64,000 nucleotides of DNA from Hyphomonas sp. (GTDB lineage Bacteria > Pseudomonadota > Alphaproteobacteria > Caulobacterales > Hyphomonadaceae): NCBI GenBank assembly GCA_017792365.1, contig CP051229.1:2480001-2544000 (forward strand), written 5' to 3'. Numbering within the stretch: the stretch's first letter is position 1; each line of letters opens with the position of its first letter. The position numbers and the translations under genes are program-made. The notes beneath the pieces were generated by a model. It was not told the origin of the DNA, did not search any database, and was given only the letters and a program-made list of their open reading frames with translations. Shown in pieces: positions 28,179 to 50,970 of this stretch.

Positions 28179-28796
28179 ATGAGCCGCCGTCCGATCCCAC
28201 GCGGCGAAATCGTGGCCGCGACGCATAATCCGGGGAAACTCAAGGAGTTGGCTGCGCTCATGGAGCCGTTGGGGTTCACGGTGACCTCGGCGGGGGATGC
28301 GGGGCTGCCGGAGCCCGAAGAAACCGAAACGACGTTTGAGGGCAATGCTGACCTGAAATCCGTGGCCGCGGCGCTGGGGACCGGAAAGATCGCTCTGTCG
28401 GACGATTCCGGGCTTGCGGTGGAAGCGCTCGATGGAGCGCCGGGCATCTATTCGGCCCGCTGGGCTGGGCCCGACAAGGACTTTTCGGTGGCGATGAAGA
28501 AGGTTGAGGAGGCGCTGCAGGCCAAATCCGGGCCTGACGGGCAAATCGATCGGCGCGCGAAGTTTGTGTGCGTCCTGTCGCTGGCTGGCCGGACGGTGAA
28601 ACTGAAACCTTCAGAGGGAGGTGGAGGGTCGCTTGGTGTGGCCGCCACGGGGGACAGAGGGTTTGGATACGACCCGATCTTCGTGGCCGACGGTCAGGAC
28701 ATCACGTTTGGCGAGATGGAGCCGGAAAAAAAGCACGCAATGAGCCACCGCGCCGTCGCCTTCGCCAAGCTGAAGGCGCGGCTCGAGAACAGATGA
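28179..28796 (+). CDS. rdgB: RdgB/HAM1 non-canonical purine NTP pyrophosphatase, with a frame-scrambled internal segment
   Basis: 205 aa. RdgB hydrolyses ITP, dITP and XTP and keeps them out of nucleic acids. Start ATG 28179 after GAAGGAAAC. ATHNPGKLKEL, SDDSGLAVEALDGAPGIYSAR, GFGYDPIF and SHRAVAF are intact family motifs. Between residues about 136 and 158 the frame reads GRTVKLKPSEGGGGSLGVAATG, which is not family-like. The missing consensus exists in the other two frames: WPDGETETFRG from 28586 and EVEGRLVWPPRG from 28619, and the normal frame returns at 28654. Three one-base losses explain this. The fold would be damaged in one strand-loop region if the sequence is real. Its stop overlaps hemW (ATGA). 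Confidence 0.9.
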   Translation: MSRRPIPRGEIVAATHNPGKLKELAALMEPLGFTVTSAGDAGLPEPEETETTFEGNADLKSVAAALGTGKIALSDDSGLAVEALDGAPGIYSARWAGPDKDFSVAMKKVEEALQAKSGPDGQIDRRAKFVCVLSLAGRTVKLKPSEGGGGSLGVAATGDRGFGYDPIFVADGQDITFGEMEPEKKHAMSHRAVAFAKLKARLENR

Positions 28797-42169: not shown

Positions 42170-44975
42170 ATGGCTGAATCAAGCATGAAGACCAAGGGAT
42201 CCGCCTCGACAACTGCGGCGAAATCGTCCCCGACCAAGCGCAAGGGCGGGAGCGTACAGGATATTTTGCCCGCCGAAGAGTCGGCCGCAGGGCAGAAATC
42301 GCCGCCGGACAAGGCTGTGACGCCGTTCATGGCGCAATATCTCGAAGCCAAGGCGGATCATCCCGACGCCCTGTTGTTTTTCAGAATGGGCGACTTTTAC
42401 GAACTGTTCTTCGAAGATGCGAAACAGGCGGCGGCAGCGCTCGACATCACGCTGACCCACCGGGGCCAGCACAAGGGCGATCCGATCCCGATGGCGGGCG
42501 TCCCCCATCACTCCTCGGACGCATATCTCGCGCGGCTGATCCGCAAGGGCTTTCGCGTCGCGATCTGCGAGCAGGTAGAGGATCCCGCAGAGGCCAGGAA
42601 ACGGGGATCGAAGGCTGTCGTCAGGCGTGAAGTGGTGCGGGTCGTCACGCCCGGTACCCTCACTGAAGATACGCTGCTTGAACCGCGCACCTCCAACCGC
42701 ATCGCGGCGCTCGGCTACGCCAAGGGTCGAACCGAGGTCGGTCTCGCCATTGCCGATGTCTCGACGGGACAGATTGAATTCCTGCGCGCCGCGCCGGGAG
42801 CGGAAGGGGAGGCGATCGCCGCGTGCAGCCCGAAGGAATGCCTGGTGGCGGAGGCCAATGCATCTGACTGCGCTGACCTGGTCGAGCTGGTAGGGGCGCA
42901 GTTGGTCGTGCGCCCCGATGCCCGTTCCGGCGCACAACTCGGCGAGACCCTGATCAAGCAGGTCTATGGCGTCTCGTCGATTGACGGATTTGGCGACTTC
43001 AACCGCGCGGAACTGTCTGCGTGTGCGCTCCTGCTCGATTATCTCTCGCTGACACAGGCTGGACGGCAGGCGCGTCTGGATCCGCCGAAGAGGAGCGGCC
43101 CGGGAGAATTCCTTGCGATTGACGCAGCCACACGCGCCAGCCTGGAAATCGATCGAACGCTCTCTGGCGACCGGAATGGCTCGCTGGTCGACACGGTTGA
43201 CCGCACGGTCACAGCGCCTGGCGCGCGGCTGCTGGCGACCAATCTCTCGCGACCGCTTCGCGACGTGGACGCCATCACCGCAAGGCACGATGCCGCCGCG
43301 ATGTTCCTCGATGCCCGCGGGGCGCGAGCTGACGTTCGCTCGCTCTTGAAATCCTCGGCTGACCTGGAGCGCGCGCGCATGCGGCTGCTCTATGGGCGCG
43401 GCGGTCCGCGCGACCTTGCAGCCATCGCGAATGGACTTTCGCTCGGTGAGCAGATCGCTGCAATCCTCGAGCGCGAAGGCGCCCCGCTGGCAGAACTCGT
43501 GAGCCGGGCGGCGCAGTGTCTCTCGATGGCGGACAAGCCGGACCTGGCGACCTTCGTCGCGGATCTTGAAAACGCCCTCGCGGCCGAACTCCCGGTCCAC
43601 ACCCGCGACGGCGGCTTCGTCGCGGCCGGTTACGATCCGGCGCTGGATGAAGCGCGCTCACTCCGCGAGAATGCGCGCGGCGTGATCGCCGAACTCGAAG
43701 CGCGTTACGCCAAGGCGACCGGCGTCAGCGCGCTGAAGATTAAGTACAACAATGTACTGGGCTACTTCATTGAGGTCACCGCGCGGCACGCGGATGCGCT
43801 GACACGCGATGAGCATGCCGCAACGTTCACGCACCGGCAGTCGCTCGCCAACGCCGTGCGTTTCTCCACGCTCGAGGTCTCAGAGCTTGAGGCGCGGATT
43901 TCGCGCGCCGATCAGGAAGCGCTTGAGCGCGAAACAGCAATCTTCAACGGCTTTGTCTCGAGGCTTGAGAAGCTTGGCGCCGCCGTTGCGGCGGCGGCCA
44001 GCGCGCTCGCGGAACTCGACGTGGCAAGTGCTGCCGCGGAGTGGGCCGATGAGACTGGCAGTGTCCGGCCTGAACTGACAACCGAACCGGTCTTTTGCGC
44101 GGTCGACCTGCGCCACCCGGTTGTCGAAGCGGCCCTCCGCAGGGAGGGGAGGGCTTTACCGCCAACTCTTGCGAACTCGATGCATCGGGAAACGCCGGCC
44201 CCAGGCTGACGCTCGTCACCGGGCCGAACATGTCGGGCAAGTCGACCTTCCTGCGTCAGGCGGCGCTGGCGGTCATACTCGCCCAGGCCGGCTTCTTTGT
44301 TCCGGCGGCTAGCCTCAGGCTCGGCGTCGCCGATCGCGTCTTCTCCCGGGTCGGGGCGGCCGACGATCTCTCGCGGGGGCGGTCGACGTTCATGGTCGAA
44401 ATGATCGAGACCGCCGCGATCCTCAATCTTTCCACGGCACACTCATTCGTCATCCTCGATGAGGTCGGTCGCGGCACCGCGACCTGGGACGGGATGTCGA
44501 TCGCGTGGGCGGTGGTTGAGCATCTGCATGACGTGAACAGGTGCCGCGCATTGTTCGCAACTCATTACCACGAGCTGACCAGCCTCGCGGATACCCTCCA
44601 GGCGTGCGCGAATGTGTCCTTGCGTGCCAAGGAGTGGAAGGGCGACCTCATCTTCCTCCACGCAGTTCAGCCCGGCCCGGCCGATCGGTCCTACGGCGTG
44701 CAGGTTGCGAAACTCGCGGGCATGCCTGGAGCCGCCGTGAAGCGCGCCAAAGCCATCCTTGAGCGGCTGGAGTCGGAGAACCCGTCCGGGACCGGTTGAA
44801 CGATCTGCCGCTCTTTGCCGATTTCGCTGCGAAGGAAGAGGCGGCGCCGGCCTCGGAAGAGGGGCGTCGGCTGTTGGAGATTGTCGAGACGATCGATCCC
44901 GACGCGCTCACCCCTCGAGACGCCCTCGAGCTCATCTATCAGCTGCGCAACTTGGCGAGCGGCGACCAGAAGTAA
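42170..44975 (+). pseudogene. mutS: mutS, mismatch-repair ATPase, interrupted by two one-base frameshifts (real or sequencing error)
   Basis: MutS recognises mismatches and small loops. Domain order: K-rich N-tail, mismatch-binding domain with [29 protein letters not shown] (Phe-x-Glu), connector, core and clamp (to about residue 640). Frame 1 goes off after AALRREG near 44146 and stops at 44209. In the next frame [19 protein letters not shown] leads to Walker [15 protein letters not shown], signature [14 protein letters not shown], Walker [16 protein letters not shown] and the THYHEL segment, to a stop at 44799. A third frame then gives [11 protein letters not shown] and DPDALTPRDALELIYQLRN to TAA 44973-44975, the usual C-terminus. 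Two missing Gs (runs 44146-44149 and 44788-44790) restore a 935-aa MutS. If real, the protein has no ATPase domain in frame. Confidence 0.9.
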
Positions 44976-48296: not shown

Positions 48297-49895
48297 ATGT
48301 CGCTCGCACGCAACGTGCTTGTGCAGACCGGCTTCACGCTGGGTAGCCGCGTGCTTGGTTTCGCGCGCGATCTCGCATTGAACGCGAAGTTCGGCGGGCA
48401 GGGACCCCTTATGGACGCATGGGGCACGGCGCAGATGCTCCCCAACTTCTTCCGCAGGCTGTTTGCTGAGGGCGCGTTCGCGCAGGCCTTCGTTCCCTCT
48501 TTTGCAAAGACGCGAGAAGTGGAAGGGGAGGCGGCGGCGCAGCAGCTGGCGTCGGACGTGATGGCCGTCATCCTGACGGTTGTCGCCTTGCTCGTGATCG
48601 CGATTGAGGTGGGGATGCCCTGGATCATGCCGGTCCTGCTGCAAGCCTATATCGATGATCCTGAAACCATGGCCACCGCCGTGCTGATGGCTCAGCTGGC
48701 GATGCCGTATCTGGTCGCCATGACGCTCGCCTCGTTGCTGTCAGGCGTGTTGAACACGTTCGGCAGATTCGCGCTTACGGCCGGAGCGCCGATACTTCTG
48801 AACATCTGCACCATCATTCCGCCCATGGTCATCGAGGACCAAAGGACCGCGGCGCTGCTCGCGAGCCTGGCCGTCACCATCGCGGGCGTGCTGCAGGTGA
48901 TCCTCTTGTGGTGGGGTGTGCGGCGGCTCGGCGTTTCGTTGTCTGCAGGATTTCCGGTCGTCAATCGCGGCGTTCGCAAGGTTATCGCGCTGGCCGTGCC
49001 CGGAGCCATCGCCGGCGGCGCGCTGCAGATCAACACGTTGGTGACGCAATACCTCTCCGGCTCCGACAAGGGCGCGCGCGCCGTGCTCTACAATTCGGAG
49101 CGGCTGTACCAGCTGCCCCTCGGCCTGATTGGCGTGGCGGTAGGCATCGCGCTGGTTCCCAGACTCACACGACACTTTGCGGACGCAGACCGCAGCGGGT
49201 CGGACCGCACAATGGATGACGGACTCGTGCTGGCCATGGCCTTCACCGTTCCCGCGACCATCGCCTTCCTGATCATGCCCTACGTCGTGATCGACGCGAC
49301 GATGACCCGCGGCGCATTCACGAGCGCCGACGCGCTGCGCACGGCGGAGGTGCTGCGCGCCTTCTCTTGGGGTATACCAGCCTTTGTGCTCGCCAAGGTG
49401 TTTGCCCCGGCGTACTTCGCACGGCAGCGGACCAAGCAGCCGATGCAGTTCGCGCTCATCACCGTTGTCGCGAACATCATCCTCGGCGCCACGCTATGGT
49501 ACTGGCTTCCTACGCAGGGCGTGGACGGCGCTATTGGTCTCGGCTGGGCGACAAGCGCCGCGAGCTGGCTCAACGTCTTCCTGCTGGCCGGGACGCTGGC
49601 CGCGGAGGGGGTCTATGTTGTCGGCGGCCGCGCCTGGTTGAAACTTGCGAGGCTCGGTCTCGCCAGCGCAATCATGGGCGCCTTTGTCGCCCTGGCCGCC
49701 GCAAACTATGAAATGCTGTCGGACATCCTGCTGGCCAAGGAGTTGGCGGTGGTCTCGATCGCTTTGTGCGGCTTCGCCATCTATCTCCTGGCGGCGTTCA
49801 TTCTGGGCGCAGTGAAGGCTTCGGAGATTACCGGCGCGCTGCGGCGAGATCGCGCAACGAAGACGGATGACTTGCCGAGCTCGTCACCCGACTGA
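48297..49895 (+). CDS. murJ: MurJ (MviN) lipid II flippase
   Basis: 532 aa, 14 predicted membrane helices. MurJ flips undecaprenyl-PP-MurNAc-pentapeptide-GlcNAc across the inner membrane. [21 protein letters not shown] at the start, [23 protein letters not shown] in loop 1 (Arg residues essential in MurJ), and the [20 protein letters not shown] segment are family marks. Part of the glnD-murJ-trpS order that is conserved in alphaproteobacteria. Confidence 0.96.
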
Positions 49896-49938
49896 TAAAG
49901 CGCGGGCGTCTCGCGGACGGCGGCTTGTGGAGCGGACG

Positions 49939-50970
49939 ATGAACGATCAGACCATCAGCTACACTGGGCCAGAGCGTGTGTTTTCCGGCGTCCAGCCGTC
50001 GGGTAGTCTCCATCTCGGCAATTACCTTGGCGCGCTCGTCAAGTTTGTCGCGATGCAGGAAGAGCGGGACTGCATCTTCTGCGTCGTCGATCTGCACGCG
50101 ATCACGGTGCCTCAGGATCCGAAACGTCTCGCCGCGCAGACCCGGGAAATTGCAGCCGCGTTCATCGCCGCGGGCGTTGATCCCAAGCGTTCCATCATAT
50201 TTGCCCAGTCCTCGGTTGGGGCGCATGCCGAACTTGCATGGATCCTCAATTGCTCCGCCCGCATGGGGTGGCTGGAGCGCATGACCCAGTTCAAGGACAA
50301 GGCGGGCAAGGACCGCGAGCGCGCTTCTGTGGGACTGTTTGCCTACCCGGTTCTTCAGGCCGCAGACATCCTCGTCTACCGGGCAACCCATGTGCCGACA
50401 GGCGAGGACCAGAAGCAGCACCTTGAACTGACACGCGACATCGCTGACCGCTTCAATCGTGACTTCGATGCACCGGGCTTCTTCCCGCTGCCGGAACCGC
50501 TGACCACCGGGCCGGGCGCGCGCATCATGAGCCTCAAGGACGGCTCGAAGAAGATGTCGAAGTCCGATCCTTCCGAGCTTTCGCGGATCAACCTCCTGGA
50601 CACGAGCGACGAGATCGCGCGCAAGATAAAGAAGGCGACGACGGACCCGGATGCGCTGCCTTCGGAACCTGACGGGCTGGAGGGTAGGGCGGAGGCCCGG
50701 AATCTCGTGGGGATCTACGCCGTGCTGGCAGGTATCAGCGAAGCGGAAGTTCTCGGTCAGTTCGGCGGGCAGGGTTTCGGCGTCTTCAAGCCCGCATTGG
50801 CGGAACTGGCCGTCGAGAAGCTGGGGCCGGTGGCGGAGCGGATGCGGCAGCTTGCCGACAACCCATCCGAAGTAGACCGCGTTCTGGCCGATGGCGCCGA
50901 CAGGGCAGGCGCCATCGCGGAGGGCGTCCTGAAAGATGTTCGACAGACTGTCGGGTTCTGGTCACCGTGA
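49939..50970 (+). CDS. trpS: Tryptophanyl-tRNA synthetase
   Basis: 343 aa class-I aminoacyl-tRNA synthetase. HIGH-like motif in [14 protein letters not shown] and KMSKS in [27 protein letters not shown] and [20 protein letters not shown] are tRNA/Trp-site signatures. Start [10 protein letters not shown] at 49939 follows GGAG; the in-frame extension upstream overlaps murJ. The stop overlaps the next gene's GTG (GTGA). Confidence 0.97.

Follow-up and report, generated by a model that had tools for sequence, protein, structure and literature searches.

The gene described here belongs to the RdgB/HAM1 family of non-canonical purine NTP pyrophosphatases, which is represented by the models TIGR00042 and PF01725 and the structures PDB 2pyu and 1k7k. 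A second body of knowledge that bears on it concerns genome assembly, since deletions at short homopolymers are a typical residual error of long-read assemblies. In such assemblies, homopolymer deletion errors break genes, and in a poorly corrected genome they are reported to fragment hundreds of them (PMC12007338). The present rdgB resembles the RdgB/HAM1 family over its whole length and in its motifs outside one scrambled stretch, departing from it only in 22 residues before GFGYDPIF, by way of frame breaks. The genome, in turn, is like the published case of indel errors in single-molecule assemblies, with what are very probably false one-base deletions for the most part, an enrichment at short runs, and many frameshifted genes in an otherwise complete single-contig genome (PMC12007338). 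It differs from that case in that the three apparent errors in rdgB cancel within a short stretch and leave the gene unflagged.

The rdgB gene and its scrambled stretch

The window, that is, the whole stretch of 64,000 nucleotides analysed, covers positions 2480001-2544000 of a single-contig genome of 3,398,407 bp. Its features at rdgB are as follows, in window coordinates.

28179..28796, + strand: rdgB, RdgB/HAM1 non-canonical purine NTP pyrophosphatase gene; open frame of 205 aa (PF01725, TIGR00042)
28586..28618, + strand: family consensus WPDGETETFRG, in the +1 frame, which is that of the following hemW-like ORF
28618..28653, + strand: family consensus EVEGRLVWPPRG, in the third frame, with a return to the original frame at 28653

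The rdgB product matches Pfam PF01725 from residue 11 to 200, near its whole length, with 169.7 bits (E 8e-50; cut-off 22.5), and scores 145.6 bits against TIGR00042, barely above the curated cut-off of 145.35, so that by the family models it is a full-length RdgB/HAM1 pyrophosphatase. The motifs HNPGK, DDSGL, GFGYDPIF, and SHR, which flank the scrambled stretch, are kept. The gene is single copy, and the idea that it might be dispensable through a duplicate was rejected because the genome holds no second rdgB.

A first-pass annotation of the window had singled out part of this protein as not family-like, and the alignment agrees: residues ~137 to 158, GRTVKLKPSEGGGGSLGVAATG, are unlike those of all 40 aligned relatives. 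Each of these has a recognisable AWPDGhxexFxGxVxGxLvwPPRGd-type block before GFGYDPIF, where the window protein alone has GRTVKLKPSEGGGGSLGVAATG; the block is conserved among the 40 relatives aligned here and less so across the whole RdgB/HAM1 family. Missing from the open frame of rdgB, it is present in the other two, which hold WPDGETETFRG and then (E)VEGRLVWPPRG, and whether the real gene contains it depends on whether the losses described below are real. Alignment of the rdgB reading frames to RdgB homologues, which the annotation had proposed as a check, matches the block out of frame and not in frame. Read out of frame, the two blocks reach 33.2 and 34.6 bits, compared with -25.6 and -29.6 when they are read in frame, and the next best match in all six frames of the whole 64 kb reaches 6.8 bits. 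Their sum of 67.8 lies far above anything obtained from 2000 codon shuffles (maximum 5.6, mean -21, sd 6.6). Chance is thus excluded as the source of the out-of-frame consensus, and the missing sequence is indeed preserved in the other two frames, as had been claimed.

A frameshift-aware alignment of rdgB to the family profile gives three -1 steps and no more, at 28584-85, 28619-20, and 28654-55, raising the score from 444.8 to 496.9 bits net of a penalty of 36 bits (a gain of 52 bits), and the same steps were recovered at both penalty settings tried. The three one-base losses first read from the sequence alone are therefore reproduced. Their positions hold to within 1-2 bases, with a small correction to two coordinates, which move back by one base: the codon for the E of EVEG starts at 28618, and reading returns to the original frame at 28653. 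Bases 28586, 28618, and 28653 each belong to both of the frame segments that meet there. The scrambled stretch exists as described, except that it spans 22 residues in rdgB, the 23 originally counted being its length in the relatives. Since the three losses together make up a single codon, reading returns to its original frame and an ORF caller has nothing to flag; as had been pointed out, the CDS at 28179-28796 remains open, over 205 codons. The second and the third break adjoin runs of three and five G, and one of the three breaks has no run of three or more bases. The same scrambled peptide in close relatives, which would have spoken against the losses, was not found in any of the relatives compared, the nearest RdgB proteins among them being ~61-68% identical.

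Frame breaks across the genome

Frameshift-tolerant alignments of the relatives' proteins were made to 864 kb of the genome and, as a control, among the relatives themselves. Given that stop-to-stop reference ORFs give rise to spurious breaks where genes overlap and ahead of start codons, reference ORFs were start-trimmed and strict flanks were used, a break being counted only where both of its flanks were well supported. On this basis, the genome under study shows 38 supported frame breaks over 166 kb of aligned sequence in conserved genes, compared with 5 over 128 kb for the relatives. One call on each side, that at 2515394 and its counterpart in the relative G026, is best discounted because the reference ORF runs antisense to a gene with a frameshift of its own in the relative G020, which leaves 37 versus 4.

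The breaks are dominated by the deletion type, with 27 of -1, 8 of -2, 2 of +1, and 1 of +2 (3 insertions). As a -2 step cannot be told from +1 by frame alone, the deletion bias rests mainly on the comparison of 27 with 2. Homopolymers of at least 4 bases lie within 5 nt of 8 of the 34 deletion-type breaks, while 5.8% is expected from random codons of the same genes, an enrichment of about fourfold (p = 0.0006). For runs of 3 or more, the enrichment is weaker (p = 0.026), and many breaks occur at shorter runs.

Most of these data come from 464 kb around the window. In the region tested, a base loss that breaks the frame occurs roughly once in every 4-5 kb of conserved coding sequence; the density is less certain elsewhere, a second region contributing 3 breaks in 10 kb of alignments. 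In rpoB and rpoC (~8 kb, at 1.03 Mb), no breaks were found, from which it follows that the errors are not everywhere. The breaks are also unevenly spaced at a finer scale. Two triplets within 70 bp were seen, compared with about 0.003 expected under even spacing, so the errors cluster, as a locally weak consensus would make them do. All of this concerns a genome that consists of one contig and is scored 100% complete.

Several of the affected genes deserve description in their own right, two of which are listed here.

42170..44951 of the window, + strand: mutS, with one base lost near 44144 and another near 44791, neither of them compensated
2354870-2355671 of the genome, outside the window: fabI, with three -1 steps within 53 bp and two more that are uncompensated

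The match to mutS is split here, while 11 of the 12 relatives give it at full length and in the remaining one, G004, contig ends interrupt it; the mutS breaks are most likely further errors like those in rdgB. In fabI, the triple step keeps the frame open, and RASPSSSLRRARACVHLS replaces GISQQLAAQGAELAFTYQ-like sequence in the same manner as in rdgB; the genome has no other strong FabI match. At its one locus, trmD gives two half-matches in two frames, whereas the gene is intact in all 12 relatives examined. The gyrB match begins at profile position 19, its first 18 positions being lost and its N-terminal codons lying in another frame, whereas 12 of 12 relatives match from position 1. Among these genes, gyrB, trmD, and fabI are expected to be essential. 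A likely one-base loss near 49928 was also seen, in one alignment, in a class Ib tRNA synthetase gene of the Trp/Tyr type (window 49715-50967), and it disappears under a stricter filter.

Origin of the losses

An excess of deletion-type breaks over the relatives, breaks left uncompensated in genes that are presumably essential, and enrichment at homopolymers, each sought as a mark of assembly indels, were all found. The annotation had left the choice between very recent changes and artefacts; the losses and their recency stand, and the genome-wide comparison decides for artefact. It is very probable that rdgB owes its three losses to errors in the assembly consensus, in which a single base would be missing at each of three closely spaced sites, two of these being G runs, and we infer that the frame steps arose in the sequencing or assembly process. 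This reading is chosen because the breaks are dense and of the deletion type, because they stand uncompensated in expected-essential genes, and because the triple loss recurs in fabI. A living cell could not carry trmD, gyrB, mutS, and fabI all so broken, and base loss in the consensus is the simplest joint account of these four genes and rdgB. In the organism itself, rdgB would then most likely be intact and encode an ordinary RdgB/HAM1 pyrophosphatase.

Other origins have been weighed against this one. A real, very recent compensated frameshift, in which one base of rdgB was lost and two more were later lost nearby, so that the frame was restored over a scrambled but open stretch, would agree with the motifs kept on either side, and a restored frame is what selection would favour. 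It is nevertheless improbable, for three separate losses would have had to become fixed within 70 bp while no substitution eroded the out-of-frame consensus, and breaks of the same kind stand uncompensated in trmD, gyrB, mutS, and fabI. Loss of mismatch repair typically leaves one-base indels at runs, and mutS, in this very window, is split by two one-base losses; a natural mutator could therefore be imagined in which MutS loss scatters fresh one-base losses at runs over the genome, housekeeping genes included, some of them compensated, as in rdgB and fabI. However, trmD, gyrB, and fabI must still work in such a strain, yet they are broken without compensation, many breaks lie away from long runs, two triplets within 53-70 bp would be unexpected, and the mutS breaks themselves are more simply explained as further errors of the same kind, all of which makes a mutator very improbable indeed. 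Translational frameshifting or transcript editing that carries the cell through the breaks would fit the consensus kept in other frames in many genes, but no shared site motif is evident by eye in the listed break contexts, the relatives are almost free of such breaks, and we know of no bacterial precedent in which ordinary genes are each shifted several times, so that hardly any probability can be given to it.

Consequences for annotation

The main value of the locus is as a warning that a single-contig genome scored 100% complete still carries many frame-breaking base losses. Compensated clusters such as those in rdgB and fabI can slip past ORF callers and enter protein databases as false divergent residues. 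Base-loss errors should be the first thing considered for any odd protein or pseudogene that is reported from this genome; a real loss of mutS, if true, would be of interest. The rdgB of the window is best regarded as an ordinary RdgB/HAM1 pyrophosphatase gene that probably contains a consensus error.

The 3' end of rdgB overlaps the start of the downstream gene, which we take from a reading of its sequence to be hemW-like. The frame of this gene is open far upstream into rdgB (window 28568-28793), and a caller that takes the longest ORF would place its start at 28568, giving 461 aa, while its likely start is near 28793.
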